DNA from: Bacteroidetes bacterium 41-46
GTDB lineage: Bacteria; Bacteroidota; Bacteroidia; Bacteroidales; UBA932
Direction of reading: 5' to 3'
NCBI GenBank assembly: GCA_001897515.1
Contig: MKTA01000030.1
Span: 62,001 to 126,000, forward strand
DNA: 64,000 nt
Part shown: piece after piece, positions 6,421-60,671 of the stretch
How positions within the stretch are numbered: position 1 is the first letter of the stretch
Layout: each line of letters starts with the position of its first letter
Notes under the pieces: model-generated
The model's input: only the letters and a program-made list of their open reading frames with translations
Databases searched by the model: none
What the model was told of the DNA's origin: nothing
Position numbers and translations under genes: made by a program

Positions 6421-9397
6421 CTTCATTTTCATCTAAATACCAAAGATAACCCTTTATATTGTTCATCCCCATCTCTTTTAGTGAAGAGATATAGTCCATT
6501 AACTGCCTGATATGGCCTTTACTCTTTAATTTTCCTGTTTTGAAATCAACAACAGTAAGAGTATCTCCTAAAATAACTCTGTCTGGTCTGTAAACCTTAC
6601 CTGATGGCAAGAGTATCTCACACTCGTTCAAAATATTTGATTCAGAAGAAAACCACCCAAGATGTTCAACAGAATTAATTAAGTTAGTAAAATAATTCTC
6701 AGTTTCTTCAGTATATTTAGCTTCAAGTTCTCCGGTATTAACTGCATTTTGGACGGCAGATTTTATGTCTTTGACATAGTAGATTTGTGATAAAATTGAA
6801 TGTATCACGACTCCTCTGCTTCTTGAGCTCTCTTCTGGATTGAAAAACTCTTCAGATCTTAATGTCAGTCTCAGATTATCAGAGTTATCCCATGATTTAA
6901 ACAAAGGCATTACCCTACCTTCAATACTGTTGCTTTTTAATTCGGGAATCACTATCTCTTCTCCAAATTTCAGGACCTTTTTGTCGCCAGATAAATCTGA
7001 GTAGAAATGAGATATAATTTCTCCAACACCTTTTGGCAATCTGTCAGGCTTGCCTGTCTCATTAACCAGAATAAAAAGGTTATCCTTTGCCCTGGTGAAT
7101 GCAACATAAGCCATATTCAAATTATCAACAATTCTGAGAAAACTCTCTTTTTCGTAATCTGCCTTAAAGTGAGTTGATGTAAGGGCATCTGCCTTTAAAA
7201 CCGGAACTATTGGCATCTTGTTAAAAGGGGGTGTATTTGGTTTACACCAAATTATATCAGATAACCCCTTAAATCCAAATTCAGTGAAAGGAACTATTAC
7301 AGTTGAATATCCAAGTCCTTTTGCCTTGTGTATAGTTATAACTCTCACGGCCTCTTCACCTTCAGGTGCAGGAATTGTCAATCTCTGAGAATTCTCTTTC
7401 CACCAGCTTAAGAAAGCAGAGAGATCAGCTCTGTTGACCTTTATGTAATCCCTTACTGTATCTAAAAAAGAGAAAATAAATGCAGCCTCAGCTCTCTTTA
7501 ACTCTTCCGGAAGATACTCAGCAAGAGATTCACACATCTCATAAAGAGGAAGTGTTGAGACTTTGTCAATATCGGCAATATTTATTCCTGAAAATTTGAC
7601 CAAAACATTGTTGATATCATCTTTTGGGTTACTAATATATCTCAAGTTTGCAATCATCGCAGAGACAGAATCTGAATTTGCAAGAAACAGAGAGTCCCCG
7701 GATATAACTCTTATCCCGGCATCAATCAAGTTCTCAGCAACTAATGAACCTTCACTGTTTCTTCTTACAAGTACTGCAATATCGCTTAAGTGCCCCCCAT
7801 TAGCAATAACTCTATCAATTGAACTCCTGACAAATTCCAAAGCACTGTTATTGTAATCCTCCCCTTTCTCTGACACAAATTTTAACTCTACATATCCTTT
7901 CCTGATAATCTTTTCAGCAGGCATTGATTGACAAACAGATGAATAGATTGATGTTACTTTTGCATCCTCATTATAGCTGTGTTCCAGTATGTCATCGCAT
8001 ACAGATGCTGCCTTTGGAAAAAAGTCATTAATAAAATCAACTATCTCCTTGCCAGATCTCCAGTTATCTGTAAGTGGAGAGTAGTTAATTTCATCTTTAT
8101 GAAACTCTTCAAAAACACTTTTATTTAACAGAGTCCAGTCTGAACCTCGCCATCTGTATATACTTTGCTTCTCGTCGCCAACAATCAAGTTTGAATATCC
8201 GGATGAGATACTATTCTTTAAAAGAGGTTTGAAATTCTCCCATTGCATTACAGAAGTATCCTGAAACTCGTCCAGCATGTAGTGATCAGTCCTTGTTCCT
8301 GTCTTTTCAAATATAAAAGGTGTATCGCTCCCGTCAATAATGTCATTAAGCAACTCAGAGGTTTCTGACAGCAAAATTACTCCGCTGTCATCAGTTACCT
8401 CCTTTATATTCTTCTTAATATCAGACACTAACCCAAGTGTGAATATGTTTTTAGATATTGCCTGAGCGGTTGCATAATCAATATAGTGGTCACTCTCATA
8501 CTTAATAATTTCGCACATAAGAGACTGTAAATTCATTCTCTCCGCAACTGCTCCTCTCTCAGAAAGAGTAGGATCATCCTTTAATGCGCTTTTTGAAAAC
8601 CATGTATCACTGCTCTGACTTGCCGTTTTAAACGTTTCATTAGAGAGTGTGAATTCACCTTTTGCTAGTTTTGCAAATCTTCCTGCAAATGAGCTGCCCT
8701 TTCTTGAAAACTCTTCTGGTTTTAAACCTGCACTTCTTAATATTTCACAACCACTTTTTCCATACATAGATAACACACTTTCATAATCTGTTATAACTTT
8801 TTGTATTACAGATGTGTAGCTTGAGATATGCTGTTTATCCAAAAACCAGTCTCCTTCATGCTTAACAGCAATTTTATAAGCCTCTTTGAAAAGTTGTTCC
8901 GCAGTTACCTGAATAATTGATCTGACATCCCAGCTCTTACCATCATCTATTCGCTGAATTGATAGTTCAAGTATCCAATTCAGAAGGGTCTCATTCTCTT
9001 CACTGTCCAGACTAAACAACATCCTGTCAATTGCCTGAGTTAGAATGTTGCTATTGTTCAATTCAAGTTCGTATGAGGTGTTTCTTCCAATCTCTCTGGC
9101 AAATGCTCTTAGTGTTTTCTGGAAAAATTTATCAATTGTCGTAATGTTGAACAGCGAATAATCATGCAGAATATTTCTAAGAAGTTTTGAAGAGAGATTA
9201 TCTCCGGCAGTAGATTCAGCAAAAAGTCTCTCTACCACCCTTCTCTTCATCTCCTCGGTTGCCTTGTTGGTAAAAGTAACTGCAAGAATTCTCCTGTATG
9301 CCCTGTCATCCTCCTTCAAAAGGTTAAGATACTCTTGAGTTAGCCTATGGGTTTTGCCCGATCCTGCAGAGGCCCTGAAAATCTTTATCTCTCCCAT
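6404..9397 (-). CDS. addA: UvrD/RecB-type helicase-nuclease (AddA-like)
   Basis: The 997-residue protein is a superfamily 1 helicase with a C-terminal PD-(D/E)xK nuclease. Visible are Walker A (ASAGSGKTHRLTQEYL), motif II (LDEFQDT), motif III (GDEKQSIYRWRGSD), motif V (ITIHKAKGLGYSTV), motif VI (VAFTRAKDNLFIL), and nuclease residues RPDRVILGD and VVDFKTGK. With its partner it should process double-strand DNA ends for recombination. An upstream start in the same frame would run back into addB; the ATG at 9397 follows the addB stop by 1 nt and is followed at once by the Walker A strand. AddA is the nearest model, but Bacteroidetes proteins of this type are divergent. Confidence 0.82.
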   Translation of the reverse strand: MGEIKIFRASAGSGKTHRLTQEYLNLLKEDDRAYRRILAVTFTNKATEEMKRRVVERLFAESTAGDNLSSKLLRNILHDYSLFNITTIDKFFQKTLRAFAREIGRNTSYELELNNSNILTQAIDRMLFSLDSEENETLLNWILELSIQRIDDGKSWDVRSIIQVTAEQLFKEAYKIAVKHEGDWFLDKQHISSYTSVIQKVITDYESVLSMYGKSGCEILRSAGLKPEEFSRKGSSFAGRFAKLAKGEFTLSNETFKTASQSSDTWFSKSALKDDPTLSERGAVAERMNLQSLMCEIIKYESDHYIDYATAQAISKNIFTLGLVSDIKKNIKEVTDDSGVILLSETSELLNDIIDGSDTPFIFEKTGTRTDHYMLDEFQDTSVMQWENFKPLLKNSISSGYSNLIVGDEKQSIYRWRGSDWTLLNKSVFEEFHKDEINYSPLTDNWRSGKEIVDFINDFFPKAASVCDDILEHSYNEDAKVTSIYSSVCQSMPAEKIIRKGYVELKFVSEKGEDYNNSALEFVRSSIDRVIANGGHLSDIAVLVRRNSEGSLVAENLIDAGIRVISGDSLFLANSDSVSAMIANLRYISNPKDDINNVLVKFSGINIADIDKVSTLPLYEMCESLAEYLPEELKRAEAAFIFSFLDTVRDYIKVNRADLSAFLSWWKENSQRLTIPAPEGEEAVRVITIHKAKGLGYSTVIVPFTEFGFKGLSDIIWCKPNTPPFNKMPIVPVLKADALTSTHFKADYEKESFLRIVDNLNMAYVAFTRAKDNLFILVNETGKPDRLPKGVGEIISHFYSDLSGDKKVLKFGEEIVIPELKSNSIEGRVMPLFKSWDNSDNLRLTLRSEEFFNPEESSRSRGVVIHSILSQIYYVKDIKSAVQNAVNTGELEAKYTEETENYFTNLINSVEHLGWFSSESNILNECEILLPSGKVYRPDRVILGDTLTVVDFKTGKLKSKGHIRQLMDYISSLKEMGMNNIKGYLWYLDENEVIEVV

Positions 9398-47185: not shown

Positions 47186-47580
47186 GGGGATGTTTTGGTT
47201 TTGACAGCATACTCAATCGGAAGGTAAGCACGTCGAGCGTCGTGAAGCCGGCTCGTAAATCCCGGAACACAAGCCATAACTGGCAACAACAACTATGCAC
47301 TCGCTGCGTAATTAAGCCCAGCTTAATCGCTTAATCGCCGCCGGCAAGGCCGGCCCCGACGAGTATCCCGCCGAACTTTAAGCCTGTTATGTCCGGCAAC
47401 AGGGGTATCATTCAAACAGGATGCCGGCGCCAACTCCTCTAAAGCGTCTTAAGAAAAAGAGGATAAGTATTGAGTGGCCTGCCTCCCGGCAGCTCATTAC
47501 CTACAATAAATGAGAGGATAAACGTGTAGAAAGCTTTTGGATGGTTTGTTTGGACGGCGGTTCGAGTCCGCCCATCTCCA
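47186..47580 (+). ncRNA. ssrA: Transfer-messenger RNA
   Basis: The 5' end GGGGATG pairs with CATCTCC at the 3' end to form the tRNA-like acceptor stem, followed by discriminator A; CCA is not encoded. The 3' end also has a T-arm (GGTTCGAGTCC). The tag frame at 47282-47311 reads GNNNYALAA then TAA, closely like tags of Bacteroidetes. The length of 395 nt fits the single-chain form. It rescues ribosomes stalled on broken messages. Confidence 0.95.
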
Positions 47581-47584
47581 CAAA

Positions 47585-51826: not shown

Positions 51827-51872
51827 GTGGGAGCAGAGGGAGTCGAACCCCCGACCCTCTGCTTGTAAGGCA
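51827..51872. repeat. attL: left 46-bp direct repeat (3' half of tRNA-Val)
   Basis: This 46-bp sequence is identical to 60596-60641. Read on the minus strand it covers tRNA-Val from the anticodon stem to the discriminator base plus 1 nt. The 5' half of a tRNA is missing here, so it is an orphan fragment. It marks the left border of the element. Confidence 0.93.
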
Positions 51873-52001
51873 TAACAAAACGGTTAATTTTAATATTTTT
51901 CAATTTCAGTCGTTTTATTAAAATCAATATATTGGCCTCATTATCTGACAATATTGTTTGTATCTTTTCATTTTTCTCCAATCTCTCTAAATTTATTTTA
52001 T

Positions 52002-52009
52002 TATATTTG
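52002..52009 (+). promoter_or_regulatory. Candidate -7 box for the integrase gene
   Basis: TATATTTG is an exact TAnnTTTG match 34 nt upstream of the integrase ATG at 52044. The expected transcript would start within or after the alternative TTG codon at 52020, which supports the ATG start. Confidence 0.45.
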
Positions 52010-52043
52010 TGTGTGAATTTTGTGTTCTCAAATAAAAATCGCC

Positions 52044-53270
52044 ATGAAGTATAAGTATTCAAACAATGGGGTTGTTGTTTCCCTTGTCAGAGATGTAAGG
52101 AAAAAGGACAAAAACGAAGAGTGCCCTATTCGCTGGTGTGTCTATTTCAACAAAAAGCGAGTTTACTATTCAACCGGCTTTTCAATGGGTTTAAAAGAGT
52201 GGAATGATTTTGTAAACAAAAATCTGGGAAAGCACAAGGAGATAAGAGATAGCTTGAGCACTCATCTTTACATTATACTGCAGCCAAAAGTAAAAGAGCT
52301 AGCAGACAATGGAGTATTTACCCATGAGAGACTTAATCAGCTCCTCGGCAAATCTGACATAAACTCTGTAAATGATGCGTTTAAGGCTAAAATTACAGCT
52401 TTAGAACAAAGTGATAAGATTTCCAACAAAATTATATATCAATGCGCTTTAAATGCGTTTGAAAGTTTTGCCGGAACAAAGCCATTCTCAGCCATAACTC
52501 CAAAATTTCTGAGAGAGTTCCAAGAGGATATGGAGAAGCGAGAGATGCGAAAAAGCTCAATGGGAATGTATCTCAGATGTTTAAGGGCAATAATTAATAA
52601 TAATGGGGAATCATTTCTCCCTGGAGGAAACTATCCTTTTGGGAAAGGTAAATTTGTCATTCCAACGGGATCAGGCCGAGAAATGGCTCTCAACTTGGAT
52701 GATATTCACAAGATTGAAGCATACGAGTGTAAGAGCAAAACAGCCGAGTTTTGCAGGGATATGTGGATTTTCTCCTTCTATTGCTCTGGGGTGAACTTTG
52801 CTGATTTGTGCCGGATGCGATATAAAGACATTCAAAATGATGAAATTTATTTTATTCGCCAAAAGACAAAAAGCACAACGCAGTCCCAACGGGATATTAT
52901 CTCTCCAGTTACTGCACCATTGAAGCGCATAATACTGAAGCATGGTAACAAAGACAAAGGAGGGTATATTTTCCCAATGCTGAACGGGACTAAAACAGAA
53001 GCTGAGAGAATAGACAATATCCGCAACTTCATCCGGTTGACAAATCGGAAAATCAAGGATATTGCAAAAGAATTGAAGCTGATGAGTGGAGTAAGTACCT
53101 ACACAGCCAGACACTCATACGCTACAATTTTGACAAAATTAAGAGTGCCTGAAAGTTATATAGCTGAACAGCTCGGACACTCTAAAAGAAGCGTAACTCA
53201 GGGTTATTTTGACAGCTACACCCGAGAAGAGCGGTTTAAATATAATGGGCTTTTGGTAAAAAATTATTAA
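52044..53270 (+). CDS. int: Tyrosine recombinase (integrase) of the tRNA-Val element
   Basis: The 408-residue integrase has an N-terminal arm-binding domain (WCVYFNKKRVYYSTGFSMGL), a SAM-like core-binding domain (about residues 110-210) and a C-terminal catalytic domain. Catalytic features are TYTARHSYAT (second Arg), AEQLGHSKRSV (His) and the nucleophile Tyr in VTQGYFDSY. Where most family members have the first Arg (GxRxxD), this one has Asn in SGVNFADLC. That change recurs in Bacteroidetes integrases. It lies just inside attL, reading away from it, as expected for an element that uses the tRNA as attB. Confidence 0.92.
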   Translation: MKYKYSNNGVVVSLVRDVRKKDKNEECPIRWCVYFNKKRVYYSTGFSMGLKEWNDFVNKNLGKHKEIRDSLSTHLYIILQPKVKELADNGVFTHERLNQLLGKSDINSVNDAFKAKITALEQSDKISNKIIYQCALNAFESFAGTKPFSAITPKFLREFQEDMEKREMRKSSMGMYLRCLRAIINNNGESFLPGGNYPFGKGKFVIPTGSGREMALNLDDIHKIEAYECKSKTAEFCRDMWIFSFYCSGVNFADLCRMRYKDIQNDEIYFIRQKTKSTTQSQRDIISPVTAPLKRIILKHGNKDKGGYIFPMLNGTKTEAERIDNIRNFIRLTNRKIKDIAKELKLMSGVSTYTARHSYATILTKLRVPESYIAEQLGHSKRSVTQGYFDSYTREERFKYNGLLVKNY

Positions 53271-53282
53271 CACTCATTTATT

Positions 53283-54077
53283 ATGGAAGAAAATAAAGAG
53301 GACATGACAACCAGAAGATTTATTTCAGGCAAAGAGATGATGGAGAGAGAGATCAGTATGCTTGAAAACGAAAAAGACTATTCAGAGAAGTTAGCCCTAT
53401 ACACAATTGAAGAACTATCTTCTATCGGAAAGCGAATTGATGACTGCTTGTATTTGTCAGAAGCACGAGAAATTGAAAAAATACTTCAATATCATTATCT
53501 CGGACTAAAAAAGATTGAACCAAAGCATAATTTCACAAGCATTAATAGTGCGTCTTATAAATCTGATGACGACTTTAATAAAAGATTCAATAAAGAGTTA
53601 TCGGACAGGATTAAATGGTTTGATGATGCAATGAAACGACTAAGCGAGAAAATCGCAAGTGGCAAACTCAAAAAAGCACCCGAATTGAAGAGTCTGGGAT
53701 TGGCTGGTATTAGTTATGACTATATCAAAAACCTTTATGAATATCTAGCCGACAAGGCAATTATTAAAAATGAGGGGGAGATAACGCGTGAAAGCCTAGA
53801 TTATGCAATAACTGGAAGAAAGCCAAAGGAAAATTGGTCATATACTCCAATAACTCTTTTAGCATCAAAGCAAGAATTGAGATTCATCCTGTCTTACTTA
53901 ATAAATGGAAATCAGCTTGGGTCATTATCAAATGAAGTGAAGAGGCGAGCCGGAGGTCTATTCATCAAGGATGGAGCTCCTATAGGAGAGCTTAGTAACT
54001 TGTCTAAGCAAGATCAAGACTGGGCCACAAAGCGAGACCGCCATAGAGGGTTTTTCGTAAAAAAATCATCCACCTGA
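53283..54077 (+). CDS. Hypothetical protein next to integrase
   Basis: I do not recognise this 264-residue protein. It has no signal peptide or membrane segment. It is strongly charged, with probable coiled-coil stretches around residues 15-75 and 110-140 (FNKELSDRIKWFDDAMKRL). The C-terminal half (SYTPITLLASKQELRFILSY and GGLFIKDGAPIGELSNLSKQ) looks like a compact folded domain. It lies 12 nt after int, so it is probably co-transcribed, and is followed by a strong terminator. A role in recombination or its control is possible by position only. Confidence 0.7.
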   Translation: MEENKEDMTTRRFISGKEMMEREISMLENEKDYSEKLALYTIEELSSIGKRIDDCLYLSEAREIEKILQYHYLGLKKIEPKHNFTSINSASYKSDDDFNKRFNKELSDRIKWFDDAMKRLSEKIASGKLKKAPELKSLGLAGISYDYIKNLYEYLADKAIIKNEGEITRESLDYAITGRKPKENWSYTPITLLASKQELRFILSYLINGNQLGSLSNEVKRRAGGLFIKDGAPIGELSNLSKQDQDWATKRDRHRGFFVKKSST

Positions 54078-54125
54078 TATAGATTAATTTTCAAACAATT
54101 ATATTTTTTCCACCCACTCCCACCC

Positions 54126-54165
54126 ATAAGCCACTCACCCCAAATGAGTGGCTTATTATTTTGTT
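54126..54165 (+). terminator. Strong hairpin terminator after the int operon
   Basis: ATAAGCCACTCA (54126-54137) and TGAGTGGCTTAT (54145-54156) form a perfect 12-bp stem with a 7-nt loop, followed by TATTTTGTTATT. It separates the int and 53283 genes from the xis-rep-helicase block, so the two blocks are likely separate transcripts. Confidence 0.8.
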
Positions 54166-54193
54166 ATTCAGCCAATTAATGGTTTTTTCAATA

Positions 54194-54201
54194 TATTTTT
54201 G
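54194..54201 (+). promoter_or_regulatory. Candidate -7 box for the xis-rep-helicase block
   Basis: TATTTTTG is an exact TAnnTTTG match 25 nt upstream of the AlpA-like ATG and just after the terminator. It would start the replication transcript. Confidence 0.45.
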
Positions 54202-54226
54202 TTTCAAATCAATTTCAATTTTTGAT

Positions 54227-54478
54227 ATGGAAAAAAAATATTTATCACTAGACGAAGCTGTTGAGTTTTTAAAAAACAAAGGGCTACCAATTGCTAAGAA
54301 TTATTTCTATGTATTGAGCTGTAAAAAACAAGTACCTCTAATAAGGTTTGGGGGTAGGAAACTTGTATTTGATGCCGAGGAGTTGAATCTCTGGGCAGAG
54401 TCCCGCCTTGAGCGGAAGAGCGGAGTAAACCCCGTTACCTCATCTGTTGCTCAAGATGCAAGAAGAAAGAAGCTATAA
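54227..54478 (+). CDS. AlpA/excisionase-like winged-helix regulator
   Basis: The 83-residue protein has a MerR/HTH_17-type fold: YLSLDEAVEFLKNKGLPIAK, then YFYVLSCKKQVPLIRFGGRK and VFDAEELNLWAESR. Small proteins of this type serve as excisionases or activators of int in many mobile elements. The frame is open 22 codons further up, over the -7 box, so the ATG at 54227 is used. The basic tail (QDARRKKL) is unusual but short. Confidence 0.8.
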   Translation: MEKKYLSLDEAVEFLKNKGLPIAKNYFYVLSCKKQVPLIRFGGRKLVFDAEELNLWAESRLERKSGVNPVTSSVAQDARRKKL

Positions 54479-54496
54479 TTTTAAAAATTCAAGGTT

Positions 54497-54691
54497 ATGG
54501 AACAGCAGTTACAAGTAAAAGCCCTGCCGGGCACAAAGGCGGATTCTATCTTAAATGATGTTTATCGCCACCTCTCTGTACTGAGAAGCAAGTACAATGT
54601 TCCGATATGCGACAAATGGATAACCCTCTCTAGTAAAAAGCACATCAAACAGTACTGGATTGAGGGGCAAAGTACAACCTCAACAAAATAA
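54497..54691 (+). CDS. Small hypothetical protein
   Basis: This 64-residue ORF lies between the AlpA-like gene (18 nt) and the replication gene (25 nt), all in one direction. It is not recognised. It has a helical middle (SILNDVYRHLSVLRSKY) and no membrane segment or signal. The tight spacing supports it as a real gene. Confidence 0.55.
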   Translation: MEQQLQVKALPGTKADSILNDVYRHLSVLRSKYNVPICDKWITLSSKKHIKQYWIEGQSTTSTK

Positions 54692-54716
54692 TTGAACAAT
54701 ATGGAGGGCGCATACA

Positions 54717-55478
54717 ATGGCATATAGATTTACGGACACAGGGAAATGGGGCGATAGTTGGTTTTACAAGCTAAATAATTTACAAAAGCTGTTGTTTATG
54801 TATCTATGCGACAATTGCGACCATGCGGGACTTATTGAAGTTAATGAGCGGAAATGGGCCTTTGATATGAATGTATCAGAAAAGGAATTGAAAGGGGCTT
54901 TGGAGGGGCTTCAAAGGGGCTTAGTTTTTAGCAACGATAGGGATGTAATTTATCTCAAGAACTTTATTAAGCATCAAAAAAACCTGCCATTCAACCAAAA
55001 AAACAAAGCACATCTCGGAATTATGAACCGGCTTGAAGAGTCAAGGCATAAGTTTGGATTTCAAAATATTATAGAATTTATAGAAGCCCCTGCCAAGCCC
55101 CTTGAAAGGGGCACAGGTATAGGTATAGGTAATGGTATAGGTACAGGTATAGGTAATTGCGATGAAAAAAAAATTAAACCGGAACCTAAACCAAAAAAAA
55201 TAGAAGTTTCTGAATTTGTAAGTATGACAGAGCAAGAACACCAAAAACTCATATCGGATTTTGGAGCAGATGGAACAACAGAACTCATTGAGATACTCAA
55301 TAATTACAAAGGCTCAACCGGGAAAAGATACAAAAACGACTACCTAGCTATAAGAGGATGGGTAAAGGATCGGTACTTAGAACGAAAAGCCAAGCCAAAT
55401 AGCAATAGAGGAGCAAAAGATGACTCTGGCGAGACCGCTCCTCAGCCACCAAGACTAAAACCAATTACAAAATGGTAA
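54717..55478 (+). CDS. Phage-type replication initiator / replisome organiser
   Basis: The 253-residue protein has an N-terminal winged-helix-like domain (MAYRFTDTGKWGDSWFYKLN, LQKLLFMYLCDNCDHAGLIE), a low-complexity Gly-Ile/Thr/Asn linker at about residues 132-147, and a C-terminal domain (KRYKNDYLAIRGWVKDRYLE) of the kind found at the end of phage initiators such as DnaD-like organisers. It would bind the origin and load the helicase encoded next. Its stop overlaps the helicase ATG by 7 nt (ATGGTAA). The direct assignment rests on layout and context. Confidence 0.75.
   Translation: MAYRFTDTGKWGDSWFYKLNNLQKLLFMYLCDNCDHAGLIEVNERKWAFDMNVSEKELKGALEGLQRGLVFSNDRDVIYLKNFIKHQKNLPFNQKNKAHLGIMNRLEESRHKFGFQNIIEFIEAPAKPLERGTGIGIGNGIGTGIGNCDEKKIKPEPKPKKIEVSEFVSMTEQEHQKLISDFGADGTTELIEILNNYKGSTGKRYKNDYLAIRGWVKDRYLERKAKPNSNRGAKDDSGETAPQPPRLKPITKW
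55109..55157 (+). repeat. Short tandem GGTATA/GGTACA repeat inside the initiator gene
   Basis: About seven copies of a 6-bp unit (GGTATA, GGTACA, GGTAAT) sit in frame and encode the Gly-Ile-Gly linker. In-gene repeats of initiators are origin sites in some phages, e.g. lambda O; here that is only a possibility. Confidence 0.75.
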
Positions 55479-56794
55479 ACATCTCAAAATTAATCATTGG
55501 CTCAATACTTTCAGAGCCTGAATCAGCATCAATAGCCTGTGAGCTTGTCTCTTCTGAAATGTTTGAGGACATTGACAGGCTCATATTTGCTAAGATTGAA
55601 GAGCTTACTGAGCAAGGCAGTAGGTTGGATTTGTATGTTCTTGGAACTGCACTTAAAAAAGACCTTGCTCCATACGGAGGTGCTACATATCTCGCAGAGA
55701 CCACTCTCAATATCTCATCAGCAAGTAGATTAAAAGAATATTGTCTGATACTCAAACAGGAGCACATTAAAAAACAATATTTCAATTTCTTTTCAGAGGG
55801 TGCTCAGTTATGCACAAATGGTGTTGAAGCTCAAAGAATAATTGATTTCGCACAGGCGGGTGCAGATAATCTAATGTCGCTTTCAAGCACATCAAGCGAG
55901 GGATTTCTACATATTTCACAGCTAACTGAGAAAGCGATTACAAAGGCTGAGGAGCGATGCTTGGCAGCTAAAGAGGGGCGTGCAATAGGTGTACCTACAG
56001 GTATTAGAGCTCTTAATCGGCTTTTAAATGGAGGATTCAAGCCAGGGACATTAAACATTCTTGCTGCGAGGCCGGCTATGGGTAAAACTGCCGTTATGCT
56101 TCATTTTGCCAAATGTGCTGCTGCTTCAGGTGTGCCTGTGTGTATTTACAGCCTTGAGATGAGCGATATTTCTTTAACAGACCGGATGCTTATGAGTATT
56201 GGCAATATGGATGTAGATTCTTACAAGAATGGGGATTTTACTCAATGGCCGGAGCTGATGGAGGCCCAAGGTGTGCTGAATAAGCTCCCAATTTTCATTG
56301 ATAGCAAGGCCCAAGTTAATTTATCCTATATCCATAACCACTCAAGGCGGATGGCGCAAAAGGGCAAATGCGGATTGATTCTGATTGACTATCTGCAATT
56401 AGCGGATATGAGCACCGGGGAGAAGAACCGGAACAGAGAGCAGGAGGTTGCTCAAGCCTCAAGGAGGTGTAAAATAATAGCCAAAGAGCTGAATGTTCCT
56501 GTTGTACTACTTAGCCAGCTCTCACGCAGTGTTGAGGATAGTAAGAACAAAATTCCTCAATTATCTCATTTGAGAGAATCGGGGGCAATAGAGCAAGATG
56601 CTGACATAGTGGCTTTTCTATATAGAGCAGCCTATTATGGAGTTGATTCAATTGAAACATATGACAATGGTACTATTTCCTCTGCGGGCATTGGTGAGTT
56701 AATAATTGGTAAGAACAGAGACGGATCAGTAGGCGCAGTCCTCTTTCAACATAATCCGAGCATGACAATAATTTCAGACTATCACTCCCAATGA
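55472..56794 (+). CDS. DnaB-like replicative helicase of the element
   Basis: The 440-residue protein has a DnaB N-terminal helical domain that begins at once (ISKLIIGSILSEPESASIAC) without the extra leader of chromosomal DnaB, a linker near residue 150, and a RecA-like C-domain: Walker A AARPAMGKTAVML (Lys about 207), Walker B LILIDYLQLADM, QLSRSVEDSKNKIPQLSHLR, and LRESGAIEQDADIVAFLYR. It should unwind DNA 5'-3' as a hexamer at the element's origin, loaded by the gene-54717 product. Its stop overlaps a further short ORF (ATGA). Confidence 0.93.
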   Translation: MVNISKLIIGSILSEPESASIACELVSSEMFEDIDRLIFAKIEELTEQGSRLDLYVLGTALKKDLAPYGGATYLAETTLNISSASRLKEYCLILKQEHIKKQYFNFFSEGAQLCTNGVEAQRIIDFAQAGADNLMSLSSTSSEGFLHISQLTEKAITKAEERCLAAKEGRAIGVPTGIRALNRLLNGGFKPGTLNILAARPAMGKTAVMLHFAKCAAASGVPVCIYSLEMSDISLTDRMLMSIGNMDVDSYKNGDFTQWPELMEAQGVLNKLPIFIDSKAQVNLSYIHNHSRRMAQKGKCGLILIDYLQLADMSTGEKNRNREQEVAQASRRCKIIAKELNVPVVLLSQLSRSVEDSKNKIPQLSHLRESGAIEQDADIVAFLYRAAYYGVDSIETYDNGTISSAGIGELIIGKNRDGSVGAVLFQHNPSMTIISDYHSQ

Positions 56795-57024
56795 AAATCA
56801 TAAACAATAAACGCTCCTCAGCTATGGGAGAATTTCGCGCCCGTACGCTAAGGCTCCTTTCTCCAGAAAACAAATTAATGCACCCCCTTTTTTATGGTTC
56901 ACATAATTCGGGTTGCCTCCCCTATTTCCAGCCCTTTTTTTATGCACTAGATAATTTAGGTAATCGCTCAACACTTCACGCCCGCGCGTTGAGGCTTCAC
57001 TTATTTCTCATGCGCACGCGCTAA
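56791..57024 (+). CDS. Possible small ORF over the iteron array
   Basis: This 77-codon frame overlaps the helicase stop by 4 nt (ATGA), as coupled genes do here. The first two 20-bp repeats are 141 bp apart, so they read in the same frame as RARTLRLL and HARALRLH. The third repeat is out of frame. It may be a real peptide or simply the origin repeats staying open by chance; protein evidence is absent. Confidence 0.3.
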   Translation: MKIINNKRSSAMGEFRARTLRLLSPENKLMHPLFYGSHNSGCLPYFQPFFYALDNLGNRSTLHARALRLHLFLMRTR

Positions 57025-57030
57025 GGCTTC
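56838..57030 (+). repeat. Three iteron-like 20-bp repeats, candidate origin
   Basis: Copies lie at 56838-56857, 56979-56998 and 57011-57030 with the consensus YGCSCRYRCGYTRAGGCTYC. They are GC-rich in an AT-rich intergenic region just after the helicase gene. They are followed by A/T-rich DNA. The setting (initiator, helicase, direct repeats) is that of an iteron-controlled origin. Binding by the initiator is inferred. Confidence 0.6.
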
Positions 57031-57074
57031 AGAAATCTTTTTAAAACCACTTTACACTATTAAATATCAACACT

Positions 57075-57284
57075 ATGGGATTAGATGGAATAATTAAAAC
57101 CAATGTTACCTGCAAAGTAATTGAGACAAACCATAACGAAGATGGTCCGGTTCGCAGAATCAAAGTAGAGGTCAGAACCGATGCTTTGCGCTGTTTTCAG
57201 GGGGCATACGCCCTATTAACCCCTGAGGAGGCAGAAAGACTCATCAGAGAGCTAGATTCTCAAATAGACCGCTTAAAGGAATGA
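57075..57284 (+). CDS. Small hypothetical protein
   Basis: This 69-residue protein is unrecognised. It has a beta-rich start (TNVTCKVIETNHNEDGPVRR) and an amphipathic C-terminal helix (TPEEAERLIRELDSQIDRLK). It follows the iteron array and lies in the same direction as the helicase. It may be a replication or copy-control accessory, by position only. Confidence 0.6.
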   Translation: MGLDGIIKTNVTCKVIETNHNEDGPVRRIKVEVRTDALRCFQGAYALLTPEEAERLIRELDSQIDRLKE

Positions 57285-57409
57285 ATCTATCAAGCCTCGC
57301 GTTAAAACCTCGTAACTCATTAAATAAATCGCCACAACAAGGGTTTTTTGAGTGGATTTTAAAGGATAAGCGCAAAGGCAATGAGTAAGAGCAAAAAATA
57401 AATAATGTC

Positions 57410-57436
57410 TTAAATCGCCCATTTTTGGCGTTTAAA
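57410..57436 (+). promoter_or_regulatory. Imperfect dyad before the 57447 gene
   Basis: TTAAATCGCC and GGCGTTTAAA form an inverted repeat with one bulged T and a 7-nt centre, ending 10 nt before the next ATG. It could be an operator or a terminator hairpin. The preceding gap (57285-57446) shows nothing else. Confidence 0.35.
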
Positions 57437-57446
57437 TCTATTTTAT

Positions 57447-58130
57447 ATGTTTAAGCAATTGAAAATAAAAAGTAGTGGATCAGCTCCAATGGGAGACAAA
57501 TCAAAAATTGCGATTAGAATAAACAGTCAAAATGTTAGTATAATTCCATTTGAGCGCGCCGGAGAAGTAATTCAATGGCCGAAGTCTGGCAGAGTAGACT
57601 CCGCCCCTGGTTCAAAGGACCTGTACGGAGTGCTTTTAGAGCAGGACATTCTTTTTATTGAACGGGCAGCGTTTTACCTCCCGTATCCTACTCTATGCAT
57701 CCTTGAGGTGAGCGAAAACGACATTACACAAGAGCATTTCAATAAGTATGCACTATTTGACGAGGTGGCTTTTACCTCTTGCAATGTGCTATTCAACGGA
57801 GGTATTATTGATTTTCTGCATGCGATTAAAGATTATTGCACACCGGAACAAAATCAAATATTTCAAAGTTCTCTTGCATACAAGGCAGAAGAAATTACTC
57901 GCAGCATGGTCAATGATGTGTCCAGGCGCGATTACCTAAATCAAATTATTGAAAGGAATAAAATCCTCAAGGAATGCTCTTTAAGAGGGGAAGATAATTA
58001 TTCTCTGTTTTTTCAGCAACTATCTCAAGTTAGGTGCGTGGAGCCCGAATCACTAATGACGCCCTTGCGTGAAAAACGACATTTGTATTACCTGATAAAC
58101 AGAATGAGCCGAGGAGGGCAAAATATTTAA
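57447..58130 (+). CDS. Hypothetical protein of the element's cargo region
   Basis: The 227-residue protein is unrecognised. It has no signal peptide or membrane helix. The first half looks beta-rich (KIAIRINSQNVSIIPFERAG, LLEQDILFIERAAFYLPYPT), the second helical (LNQIIERNKILKECSLRG). It is followed after 66 bp by the ParB/sulfiredoxin-like gene in the same direction, so the two may act together. Codon use is like the rest of the element. Confidence 0.65.
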   Translation: MFKQLKIKSSGSAPMGDKSKIAIRINSQNVSIIPFERAGEVIQWPKSGRVDSAPGSKDLYGVLLEQDILFIERAAFYLPYPTLCILEVSENDITQEHFNKYALFDEVAFTSCNVLFNGGIIDFLHAIKDYCTPEQNQIFQSSLAYKAEEITRSMVNDVSRRDYLNQIIERNKILKECSLRGEDNYSLFFQQLSQVRCVEPESLMTPLREKRHLYYLINRMSRGGQNI

Positions 58131-58196
58131 AGTAGTTTATCACTAGAACTATTCGGAGGGGAATGAATAATCAAAATATAATTCAATTTATTTATT

Positions 58197-58829
58197 ATGA
58201 CATTAGAAGAATTTAATAGTTACATCCTTAACCATTCAAAATTTGTTGAACTAAAGAACGAGGCTGCTGTGCCTATAATGAATATAGAGTGGGAAGAAGA
58301 TATTTCTAATATTGAGGCGTACTACGAAAGAATTATTTGTAAGCAAAATCTTGGCGTTATACTTGAAGATAATATTGCAAGCTCATTGAATAGGACTTTT
58401 TTAAAAAGGATTGATACAATTGAGATCCCAGGGAGTTTTACACCTCAGCTTTTTATTGAGTCGGATATTGAGCGAATGACCACATTAATAAGATTCTCAA
58501 GTAGTGGCAATAAGGTTGCACCCCCGCTCTGTCATTGTAGGTACAAAATGAAAGATGGGGCAATTGAACAACTCCCCCTTGAAATTGGCGATGGGATTCA
58601 TAGAGTGCGATTGGCAAAGCATCTTAATCTGTCAGAAATTTTTATTTTTGTAGTTGAGCGGCCGTATGAGCTTACATTCTCTCACTCTCTATGGAGCTTA
58701 GGGAGTGATGGCAAGGAAATATTCATTAAAGAACGAGATGGCGTGAAAGAATTCCGGTTACCATTGGAAGCATACGAGGGCAAACTGATTAGTTCTGGAG
58801 ATTATTGCTTTTTGCCTAGAGAATTTTAA
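58197..58829 (+). CDS. Hypothetical protein with ParB/sulfiredoxin-like motif
   Basis: The 210-residue protein contains EIGDGIHRVRLAKHLNLSEI near residue 142, similar to the DGxHRxxAAxxLG signature of the ParB/sulfiredoxin nucleotide-binding fold. In that family the motif binds nucleotides in DNA-segregation, nuclease or phosphotransfer proteins. Here the usual second His (HHR) is replaced by Ile-His-Arg. The rest is unrecognised. It may be part of a two-gene cargo module with 57447. It is followed by a 333-bp gap with a terminator. Confidence 0.6.
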   Translation: MTLEEFNSYILNHSKFVELKNEAAVPIMNIEWEEDISNIEAYYERIICKQNLGVILEDNIASSLNRTFLKRIDTIEIPGSFTPQLFIESDIERMTTLIRFSSSGNKVAPPLCHCRYKMKDGAIEQLPLEIGDGIHRVRLAKHLNLSEIFIFVVERPYELTFSHSLWSLGSDGKEIFIKERDGVKEFRLPLEAYEGKLISSGDYCFLPREF

Positions 58830-59162
58830 CCGTCAAATAACAATCTAAAAAATTCACTCTACCACTTAAAAACACAATTAGCCTCATAAGACCAGGCCTT
58901 GATTATGAATTTCTACCAATGACTGATTCTTATTAGTAAGTAATCTGTTGTGCAGTTGTTTGCACCTATCTTGAGTAAATATCAATTAAAGGGGGTTAAT
59001 CCCCCCTTTTTTTTGCCTGATTTGTTTTCATATTGAAAACATATTGCATTGATTTACTGACAAATATACGAATAAAGTATTTAAAATAAAATAGCATTTG
59101 CTATTGATTTAAGAATTTTTATGCATTTGCTTTGCTTCATCAAACTCTTAAAAAATATTATT
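58830..59162. other. 333-bp gap with terminator, no gene seen
   Basis: No plausible ORF on either strand begins with a usable start in this gap. It contains the terminator at 58988-59014. A TATATTTG box at 59061-59068 on the minus strand has no gene to serve. The region is AT-rich and otherwise featureless. Confidence 0.6.
58988..59014 (+). terminator. Intrinsic terminator after the 58197 gene
   Basis: AAAGGGGG, a short loop and CCCCCTTT form an 8-bp stem followed by eight or more T. It ends the transcript of the cargo genes, about 160 nt after the stop. Confidence 0.85.
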
Positions 59163-59549
59163 ATGAAAGAAGAAAAACAAATCGTTAGTGATGAGGACTT
59201 GAAATTATTGGAATTGTTCTCTCTATTAGGTAAAAGAGCAGAGCAGAAATCACCTGCAATAGCAGCTTGTTTTGGGAATAATGATGCTCAGGGCTCTCTT
59301 TACGCAATAAGGCTCGCACTTGATAGCCTTGTGCAATTAGGGTGTGATTTTAATGAAGATGATTTTGTTGAAATGGCAAAAACACTTCAACAGAGTAATT
59401 TAGATGGTGCTGAAACCATTCTCAGGGTTTTGTACTCAGCAACAAGGTATTTAAATGAGCTTGAAGCATATCGCAATGTAGTTAGTGACCTTTTGGACCT
59501 AGAGTACAAAGCAAGGCGCAATAAGGCCCCTCAATCAAGCAATAACTAA
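59163..59549 (+). CDS. Small hypothetical helical protein
   Basis: The 128-residue protein is unrecognised. It is predicted helical throughout, with a conserved-looking middle (SLYAIRLALDSLVQLGCDFN). The longer frame from 59121 starts in a hydrophobic stretch with no support; the ATG at 59163 follows TATTATT, as in nearby genes. It lies 19 nt before 59569, so the two are likely one operon. Confidence 0.6.
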   Translation: MKEEKQIVSDEDLKLLELFSLLGKRAEQKSPAIAACFGNNDAQGSLYAIRLALDSLVQLGCDFNEDDFVEMAKTLQQSNLDGAETILRVLYSATRYLNELEAYRNVVSDLLDLEYKARRNKAPQSSNN

Positions 59550-59568
59550 CCGGCTCGCAACAAGTATT

Positions 59569-59877
59569 ATGAAAACAAATGTAAGTGATGATTTTTTAAT
59601 AAGCCAGGCACTACTAGCTATGAGTGAACTCGCAACATTTCATAAGTGCACAGGCTCGCAATCTATGATTAACTTGATTAGGCAATCAGTTAAGAAAGAT
59701 TCTATTCTATATGAATTTAAAGGCGAAGAGCTAGAGCGGTTCATTGATGAGATAAGCCGAATCAATCTTTTTGCTAATAAGTTTGAGAATAGGCTTACCG
59801 ACCTGGGGCTAGAGTTCCGAAAAAAGGCCATACAGATAGAAGAGAGCCCCAAAAAGGGGATTATCAAGGCTGAATGA
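59569..59877 (+). CDS. Small hypothetical protein
   Basis: The 102-residue protein is unrecognised and helical (ELERFIDEISRINLFANKFE), with no membrane segment. It shares an operon with the 59163 gene and is followed by a terminator. No function can be offered. Confidence 0.6.
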   Translation: MKTNVSDDFLISQALLAMSELATFHKCTGSQSMINLIRQSVKKDSILYEFKGEELERFIDEISRINLFANKFENRLTDLGLEFRKKAIQIEESPKKGIIKAE

Positions 59878-59921
59878 TATAGACACACCCCAGTAAAATT
59901 GATTGGTTAAAACCAAAGAAA

Positions 59922-59955
59922 TAGCACCTCCGCTCGGGGGTGTTATTTTTTACCC
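59922..59955 (+). terminator. Intrinsic terminator after the 59569 gene
   Basis: AGCACCTCC, the loop GCTC and GGGGGTGTT pair with G-T wobbles, followed by ATTTTTT. It ends the two-gene operon before the ASCH gene. Confidence 0.75.
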
Positions 59956-60034
59956 CTACAATAAGATTGAATAGAAATCTAGCCCATCCATCCACATACC
60001 CGGATGCAAAATTTACATTTTTCTGTATTTTCCT

Positions 60035-60065
60035 CTTGCAAATGATTATTAAAAGATTAAATTTG
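60035..60065 (+). promoter_or_regulatory. Promoter of the ASCH-domain gene
   Basis: CTTG (60035-60038, one mismatch to TTTG), 19 nt, then TAAATTTG (60058-60065) fits the Bacteroidetes consensus. It lies 21 nt upstream of the ATG at 60087 and excludes the longer frame that opens at 59940. Confidence 0.6.
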
Positions 60066-60086
60066 AGGCATCTAAAACAAAGTATT

Positions 60087-60467
60087 ATGAAAGTTCTAAC
60101 TCTATCAATCAAACAACAATGGTTTGACGAAATCAGGGCAGGCAAGAAAACGATAGAAACTAGGGAAATCAAGCCCACAACTGCAAGTAAATACATTGAG
60201 TATTCCTATAATGGCGAGCGAATCAAAGAGTCTCAGATTACCGATGATATGGAGGGTGTTGAAGCTATTCCAATCAAATACGATGCTATCAAGTTCCTCA
60301 CAGGTGCGTACGAGGGCACAAGGCCAAGTATGATAGTTGAGGTAACAGGCGAAGAGGTTTACATTCTTACAGACGAAGAGACAGGCGAAGATCTCGTTTA
60401 CGAAAATAACGGGGTTGAGTATGTCGCTGCCGAGATAGTCTATTCTTTGGGAAAAATCATTGAATAA
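60087..60467 (+). CDS. ASCH-domain protein at the right end of the element
   Basis: The 126-residue protein starts MKVLTLSIKQQWFDEIRAGK followed by KTIETREI, the N-terminal signature of ASCH domains (related to PUA and EVE folds). Such proteins bind RNA or modified nucleotides; some have nucleotide hydrolase activity. The exact role here is unknown. It is the last gene before attR and has its own promoter and no partner, which fits an accessory gene. An upstream frame from 59940 is excluded by the promoter position. Confidence 0.8.
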   Translation: MKVLTLSIKQQWFDEIRAGKKTIETREIKPTTASKYIEYSYNGERIKESQITDDMEGVEAIPIKYDAIKFLTGAYEGTRPSMIVEVTGEEVYILTDEETGEDLVYENNGVEYVAAEIVYSLGKIIE

Positions 60468-60548
60468 TAATTTCAAAACCTCCCCTATCGCTGAGGAGCA
60501 TTTTTGCAGAAATGATGTTTTTTTGTGTGAATTGTGTGTTCCAAAAGA

Positions 60549-60581
60549 AAAAGCACCTATCTGTATTTACTAGATAAGTGC
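60549..60581 (-). terminator. Element-supplied terminator for tRNA-Val
   Basis: On the minus strand GCACTTATCT and AGATAGGTGC form a 10-bp stem (one U-G pair) followed by TTTTTCTTTT, about 15 nt past the tRNA 3' end. It replaces the host terminator left behind at 51792-51824. Confidence 0.7.
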
Positions 60582-60595
60582 CTGATTCTCACTTT

Positions 60596-60641
60596 GTGGG
60601 AGCAGAGGGAGTCGAACCCCCGACCCTCTGCTTGTAAGGCA
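60596..60641. repeat. attR: right 46-bp direct repeat
   Basis: This is identical to 51827-51872. It supplies the 3' part of the working tRNA-Val, from the anticodon stem to the discriminator base. The 5' part of the tRNA (60642-60671) is host DNA. The repeat marks the right border of the element; the distance between the repeats is about 8.77 kb. Confidence 0.93.
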
Positions 60642-60671
60642 GATGCTCTAAACCAACTGAGCTATGCTCCC
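60597..60671 (-). tRNA. tRNA-Val (anticodon UAC)
   Basis: The 75-nt cloverleaf starts GGGAGCATAGCTCAG. The acceptor stem GGGAGCA pairs with TGCTCCC; the anticodon loop CTTACAA gives UAC; the T-arm has TTCGACT. The discriminator is A and CCA is not encoded. It is the integration site: its 3' 45 nt lie within the attR repeat. Confidence 0.95.

Follow-up and report, generated by a model that had tools for sequence, protein, structure and literature searches.

In the present study, we describe an 8.8-kb integrative element, here called the island, at a tRNA-Val gene of Bacteroidetes bacterium 41-46. The DNA analysed comprises 64,000 nt of contig MKTA01000030.1 (positions 62,001–126,000, forward strand; assembly GCA_001897515.1); this whole stretch is referred to as the window, and all coordinates are given within it unless a contig or stretch is named. 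We favour, with about even confidence, the reading that the island is a recently inserted phage satellite that lacks a relaxase, resembles the phage-inducible chromosomal islands (PICIs) and phage-inducible chromosomal minimalist islands (PICMIs), and carries a phage-derived replicon. It would probably borrow a phage's particles to move, a step that is plausible and unproven. A satellite had been proposed here by an earlier, sequence-only reading, of which the tRNA-Val element with intact ends, its own integrase and its initiator–DnaB–iteron module stand, the module being of phage type, while a satellite life is a candidate reading.

Insertion at tRNA-Val

The island is bounded by a perfect 46-bp direct repeat whose two copies start 8,769 bp apart and are the only exact copies in the assembly (2,465,300 bases scanned); the bases flanking them differ between left and right. 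The repeat corresponds to the 3' part of an intact tRNA-Val(TAC) called by ARAGORN at the right end of the island, and the left copy is an orphan half, because no tRNA is called there. Both this repeat with its half-tRNA and an integrase beside attL had been claimed from the letters, and both were recovered. The features on which the argument depends are as follows.

51827–51872, minus strand: attL, orphan 46-bp 3' half of tRNA-Val; perfect repeat of 60596–60641, no complete tRNA (ARAGORN)
52044–53270, plus strand: int, tyrosine recombinase of Arm-DNA-bind_5 / Phage_int_SAM_5 / Phage_integrase type (PF00589 E 1.4e-11, PF13102 E 1.5e-10, PF17293 E 3.2e-6; phrog_1 E 4.3e-24); searched from start 52053 or 52020, ATG at 52044
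54227–54478, plus strand: candidate excisionase/AlpA-like helix-turn-helix (HTH) protein, a weak assignment (HTH_17 E 0.073, below cut-off; phrog_7338 E 1.5e-4); searched from 54230, ATG at 54227
54717–55478, plus strand: replication initiator with a 'replisome organizer' C-terminal domain (phrog_13246 E 1.3e-26, residues 151–227); similar C-terminal domains occur in terminase-carrying phage regions
54893–55102, no strand assigned: iterons 1, five exact AGGGGCTT octamers (plus strand at 54893, 54904 and 54915; minus strand at 55084 and 55095)
55115–55155, plus strand: iterons 2, 6.8 copies of AGGTAT in the initiator linker (Tandem Repeats Finder, TRF, score 61)
55472–56794, plus strand: DnaB-type replicative helicase (PF03796 E 5.6e-79, PF00772 E 1.9e-10, phrog_19 E 4.9e-91), grouping apart from host-type DnaBs
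60596–60641, minus strand: attR, 3' half of the intact tRNA-Val (repeat match)
60596–60671, minus strand: intact tRNA-Val(TAC), the integration target (tRNA call)

Comparison genomes (24 congeners among them), fetched stretches and contigs are designated by G-, L- and C-numbers, respectively. The gene folC was located in 20 of the 24 congeners, and scanning of these loci showed tRNA-Val beside it in every case (20/20). The aldo-keto reductase gene that forms the left flank of the island comes after the tRNA in five congeners, at a distance of 0.67 kb in G007 and approximately 0.1–0.15 kb in G011, G020, G024 and G022; in the last two, the empty site is read across two contigs, which in G024 overlap there at 98% identity. 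A single copy of the tRNA core was present in 16/16 congener stretches fetched downstream of the tRNA (0.5–14 kb), and the window flanks, joined by script with one att copy kept, align through the site with G011, G020 and G007. The empty congener sites and the aligned flanks therefore indicate that the island entered an otherwise plain chromosome. It had been stated that structural genes of a phage, if found at this site in close relatives, would speak against a satellite; the congener sites read were empty.

At the insertion, the intact tRNA stands at the right end of the island and int at the opposite, left end. As judged by folding and by eye, the insertion has left the terminator-like hairpin of the tRNA outside the left boundary, and on the right the tRNA is succeeded by a hairpin and T that come from the island. 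The tRNA core was found in 119 of the 240 genomes searched (own included), and among the congeners it occurs once in 18, twice in two and not at all in four. The two-copy congeners, G022 and G024, were dismissed as carriers of a second island, their contigs being split at the empty site, as was G039, where two complete tRNA-Val(TAC) genes lie about 4 kb apart instead (2494–2571 and 6576–6653 of L172, on contig C31). No second island at the same tRNA was found among the places listed in the 240 genomes.

The replication module and its probable origin

The sequence-only reading had named an initiator and a DnaB-like helicase, and the profile matches listed above identify both; their genes overlap by 7 bp. 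In a DnaB tree, the island's helicase groups with the DnaBs of phage regions in a 14-row clade (support 100/98), which is separate from 23 rows that are host-type by E-value class. A terminase large subunit lies in the same stretch as the initiator–dnaB pair in L078, L079, L080 and L161, all fetched by DnaB search, and relatives of the initiator in L032, L033, L143 and L144 likewise have a terminase in their stretch. Because of this clade and of the terminases in the stretches of related initiators and of initiator–dnaB pairs, the initiator–DnaB module is judged to be phage-derived. In L078, L079, L080 and L161, which represent phage operons of related hosts, the initiator, as in the island, stands immediately before a phage-type dnaB and carries short in-frame tandem repeats in its linker; these operons differ from the island in the terminase of the same stretch and in the sequences of their repeats. 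The initiators of L078–L080 are marginally similar to that of the island, and that of L161 shows no similarity at E 1.

The strong repeat arrays are located within the initiator gene (54893–55157). The AGGGGCTT octamers form three direct and two inverted copies, and in each set neighbouring copies lie 11 bp apart, close to one helical turn; five of the window's 10 exact copies lie inside this gene, compared with 2.2 expected per 64-kb window, the count of 10 was reached by 0/100 shuffles, and no other 8-mer reaches five copies in any 250-bp span of the island. The periodicity of the AGGTAT array was reached by 0/200 codon-order shuffles and 0/500 synonymous resamplings, which indicates that the DNA is patterned and not only the Gly-Ile-rich peptide that it encodes; among seven other island genes serving as controls, none had ≤1/200 shuffles as good, the lowest value being 50/200. 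The gap after dnaB holds imperfect repeats only and gives no folding signal (z −0.44 and 0.33), and a C4-type antisense RNA considered there was rejected, with no Rfam match and no folding signal. An iteron-like array had been claimed, and it is present beyond chance, with its strong repeats inside the initiator gene and not in the gap after dnaB.

For comparison, 20 other initiators were taken, nine chosen by sequence similarity (E 2e-6 or better) and 11 by their position directly upstream of a related dnaB, and an array was counted as significant when ≤1/200 shuffles scored as well. Ten of the 20 carry such an array, among them eight of the 11 taken for their position (L009, L078–L083 and L161). 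Initiators followed by a DnaC-type loader carry none (0/5: L032, L033, L143, L145 and Bacteroides phage Versailles), the loader being recognised by annotation in Versailles, by family search in L145, and by eye in L032, L033 and L143. Given the ordered iterons and this comparison, the best reading, new in this analysis, is that the island's probable origin lies inside the initiator gene. In phage lambda, too, the origin is located within the initiator gene. A phage-type initiator and helicase with iterons, the features of a phage-type iteron replicon, are all present in the island.

Other dnaB contexts were noted as well. In L042, L043 and L162, a dnaB of the same broad clade lies beside genes for an HU-like protein and an amidase (by eye), joined in L042 and L162 by a short conserved ORF; this arrangement looks like a recurring cassette. 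A 339-aa protein at 8273–9292 of L084 (G031, contig C6) has the C-terminal DnaB domain only, is 43% identical to the island DnaB, and sits among chromosomal-looking genes (by eye).

Gene content, known systems and rival explanations

The island contains 12 uninterrupted ORFs, all on the plus strand, which make about 82% of the unit coding; eight are unidentified or weakly identified, in agreement with an earlier mention of several unknown genes on one strand. All 12 were profile-scanned with Pfam and PHROGs, and NCBIfam covered 10 of the 12. The remaining features are listed below.

53283–54077, plus strand: 264-aa protein directly after int; no Pfam or NCBIfam family above cut-off
54497–54691, plus strand: 64-aa ORF; no Pfam or PHROGs family
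56795–57074, no strand assigned: gap in which repeats of 24 and 33 nt are imperfect and weak; folding gives no signal
57075–57284, plus strand: 69-aa ORF; no family above cut-off (Pfam, PHROGs, NCBIfam)
57447–58130, plus strand: 227-aa orphan protein; match in own genome only (1/148), no phage match
58197–58829, plus strand: 210-aa orphan protein; nothing matched among families, phages or PDB; by eye alone, one stretch is suspected to be ParB/sulfiredoxin-like
59163–59549, plus strand: 128-aa ORF; no family (Pfam, PHROGs, NCBIfam)
59569–59877, plus strand: 102-aa ORF; weak matches only (phrog_32598 E 0.062, PADLOC PbeC E 0.0043)
60087–60467, plus strand: ASCH-like protein of the phrog_625 family (phrog_625 E 1.7e-13; ASCH E 0.0025, below cut-off); searched from 60090, ATG at 60087

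In these scans, no family was recognised for a relaxase, coupling protein, capsid, portal or terminase, the same absences that had been read from the letters, nor for a partition or mobilisation gene. Since several ORFs have no match at all, an unrecognised packaging or mobilisation gene is possible. For the orphan proteins, sequence searches of NCBIfam, PADLOC and PDB gave nothing usable, and single-sequence fold models were unusable (mean pLDDT 31 for the 227-aa and 37 for the 264-aa protein). The AlpA/Xis-like assignment that had been proposed for the small HTH gene is weak when the gene is taken by itself and gains from a protein of G058 that is 35% identical to it, lies beside a related integrase, and matches HTH_17 at E 3e-6. 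Elsewhere in the window, a tmRNA gene is located at 47186–47581, with the tag AAGKAGPDEYPAEL.

Relaxase-carrying integrative and mobilisable elements (IMEs) of Bacteroides, such as NBU1, show the same tRNA-type integration by a tyrosine recombinase as the island; they have a relaxase and primase-type replication, whereas in the island no relaxase was recognised in the 12 ORFs (orphan ORFs remain) and replication is of phage type. The criteria that define PICIs are att sites, exclusive genes, induction that depends on a phage, the organisation of the origin, interference and packaging (PMC6092414). The island has its own specific att site with an integrase (46-bp repeats, int beside attL, empty congener sites); as to the exclusive genes AlpA and Pri-Rep, it has the weak AlpA-like match (HTH_17 E 0.073) and no recognised Pri-Rep. 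Gram-negative PICIs of the EcCICFT073 type share with it an own att site, an integrase, an AlpA-like small HTH gene, and an own replication gene and origin, the island's origin being a probable one, but they replicate by a Pri-Rep protein, whereas the island has an initiator and DnaB with iterons inside the initiator gene (PMC6092414). The requirements for PICMIs are int, AlpA, primase and fis, and HTH_17 (PF12728) is taken as AlpA in their search model (PMC10803314). Like the island (8.8 kb), PICMI is small (6.1 kb) and has direct repeats, an integrase, an AlpA/HTH gene and its own replication gene, and neither has a capsid-remodelling or packaging-redirection gene recognised in that source or in our scans; PICMI differs in its 17-bp repeats, its site beside fis, and its DUF3987/DUF5906 primase, in place of which the island has 46-bp repeats, tRNA-Val, and an initiator with DnaB, no primase family (DUF3987/DUF5906 or Pri-Rep) being recognised among its ORFs in Pfam and PHROGs (PMC10803314). 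Helper dependence has been shown for PICMI (PMC10803314), while the island, in this comparison and in that with PICIs, is known from sequence alone. As far as anatomy goes, the island would work like a PICI/PICMI satellite, and we file it as a member of neither.

Relatives of individual island genes were sparse. Counting the own genome, the initiator was matched in 6/99 relatives and 4/393 genomes of the order, and the integrase in 20/299 at E 1e-40 (the others at ≤35% identity, listed exceptions aside); DnaB was matched in 108/299 at E 1e-60, read as mostly host DnaB, and in 5/393 at E 1e-72, own included. The 264-aa protein was found in the own genome alone (1/99). Viral contigs yielded one DnaB relative and none for the initiator, the integrase or three orphans; GTDB contigs yielded one DnaB relative and none for the integrase; named phages yielded eight records for the initiator and none for the three orphans. 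The closest parallel is L159 (contig C93 of G145, 6,008 bp, from another family); it holds an HTH_17 gene, an initiator, a dnaB matching that of the island at 43% and an ORF of 212 aa, with a type I/III restriction-like gene next to them. No structural gene was recognised on this contig, which at 6 kb is too short to tell island status. A 7-kb contig of G058 (C126; L106) carries the nearest integrase found in the family, 35% identical to the island's; after it come an ORF of 244 aa, an HTH_17 gene resembling that of the island, and a gene for an AAA_25 ATPase. From this gene order, it is judged to be another kind of element that shares the same start. At positions 1–3700 of L034 (G042, contig C8), several small genes lie beside folC at a contig end, among them an HTH_17 gene and one for a DUF6291/replisome-organizer protein, and no tRNA was found there. 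Records named 'Bacteriophage sp.' (MT836474, with a 34% integrase match, and others) were rejected as satellite evidence, being unverified linear scaffolds without terminal overlap; the ORFs of MT836474 were read by eye as bacterial outer-membrane nutrient-uptake genes.

The main rival, which we regard as fairly unlikely, is a temperate phage trimmed by deletion: it would have lost its late genes and kept its att sites, its integrase, the genes for early replication and a few genes at the right end, and would be a relic, though perhaps one still able to excise. The phage-type initiator and DnaB, together with the terminases in the stretches of the initiator relatives, would suit such an origin, and an int beside att, small right-end genes and an ASCH-like protein of a phage family resemble a phage layout. 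Against it stand the uninterrupted ORFs at 82% coding; no head, tail, lysis or repressor remnant was recognised among them in Pfam, PHROGs and NCBIfam, nor any other structural or packaging gene of a temperate phage. The 46-bp repeats are also perfect, although this identity gives no insertion date, because the repeat falls in conserved tRNA sequence. We prefer a satellite to a trimmed prophage on the grounds that the genes are densely packed and free of interruptions and that no remnant of late genes was recognised. An IME that has only an origin of transfer (oriT), excises, and is carried without a relaxase by a conjugative helper through an unrecognised oriT is an improbable alternative; elements of this kind, termed iOriT, are described in the literature (PMC11389934). 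The related integrase type does occur in other elements, such as that of G058, whose 7-kb contig has an HTH_17 gene, an AAA_25 ATPase and no phage genes, but the island's replication module is of phage type and not of plasmid or IME type, and no mobilisation family was recognised in the Pfam, PHROGs and NCBIfam scans (oriT was not searched for). Very improbable, in our estimate, is a plasmid or phage-plasmid captured by gaining an integrase: the replicon with its iterons looks complete, and 37% DnaB homologues are found on two records of Bacteroides finegoldii that are entered as plasmids, but the initiator has no match among 72,556 plasmid records at E 0.01, and the island scans recognised no partition gene.

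Several observations weigh against the satellite reading and the replicon proposed for it. No homologous island was found in the genomes searched or in the viral, phage and plasmid collections, and therefore no conserved satellite family is shown; the gene order that the sequence-only reading had expected at tRNA genes elsewhere was absent at the depth searched, so that its proviso that a lack of homologous islands would refute a satellite applies in part. No packaging gene was recognised in the scans of the island ORFs, the Xis/AlpA assignment of the HTH protein is weak alone, and a prophage without late genes would look much alike. In the DnaB tree, the host-type class does not reflect genomic context, and the island and its neighbour L147 are marked as long branches, possibly falsely joined. 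Ten of the 20 comparison initiators, including the one in the nearest dnaB context, L159, have no significant array, and only two of the nine similar in sequence to the island's have one (L044 and L144); the arrays of L082 and L144 are low-complexity runs, and that of L009 was matched by 84/500 synonymous resamplings and is partly explained by the peptide. Comparison with the phages of the own genome adds to these points: shared packaging DNA amounts to chance-level 16–34 bp matches (E 0.16 or worse), and the sole protein link is a 27%-identical integrase. The 34-bp match was rejected as a shared packaging signal, since it is a tRNA half, the attR of the tRNA-Arg prophage described below.

Possible helpers and the proposed life cycle

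Possible helpers exist, since the own genome holds an element at tRNA-Arg and further phage contigs. Searches of its contigs gave a terminase match on C33 and portals on C7 and C3. Contig C33 (G000; L164, L163 and L154) carries a 40,560-bp prophage-like element between perfect 47-bp repeats at 90784–90830 and 131344–131390; the first repeat lies within tRNA-Arg(TCT), with an integrase just inside, the same insertion scheme as that of the island. Tape-measure and methyltransferase genes were recognised in this element and a terminase was not. It is immediately followed by another phage region, which encodes a terminase, a portal and a major head protein and extends to the contig end. On C3 and C7, the terminase and major head protein genes belong to another type. 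Helpers are thus possibly available in the own genome, and none is implicated.

On the satellite reading, the integrase, with the small HTH protein as excisionase, would excise the island at times of helper-phage activity. The initiator would bind the iterons in its own gene, melt the DNA and load the island's own DnaB; because of this proposed loading, the circle could be amplified independently of the helper's initiator. Helper-made particles would then take up the amplified DNA, possibly in concatemeric form, given that no capsid-size or terminase gene was recognised. In a new cell, integration would take place at tRNA-Val, the island restoring the 3' half of the tRNA.

In the literature found (preprint and subscription literature being outside its scope), phage satellites come mostly from Enterobacterales, Vibrionaceae and Gram-positive cocci, and none is named for this bacterial group. 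It is conceivable, if on balance doubtful, that the island represents the first recognised satellite lineage of this group, one that took a whole initiator-with-internal-origin and DnaB module from a temperate phage and would need a helper for particles only; the xis–initiator–dnaB order of L159 may be a second, distant case of such a lineage. The comparison of initiators also offers a testable rule, namely that initiators before their own dnaB tend to carry internal iterons (8/11), in contrast to those with a DnaC-type loader (0/5). If the island is packaged, the case would be a compact one with clear boundaries: candidate helper prophages are present in its own genome, and its predicted origin is open to direct test.

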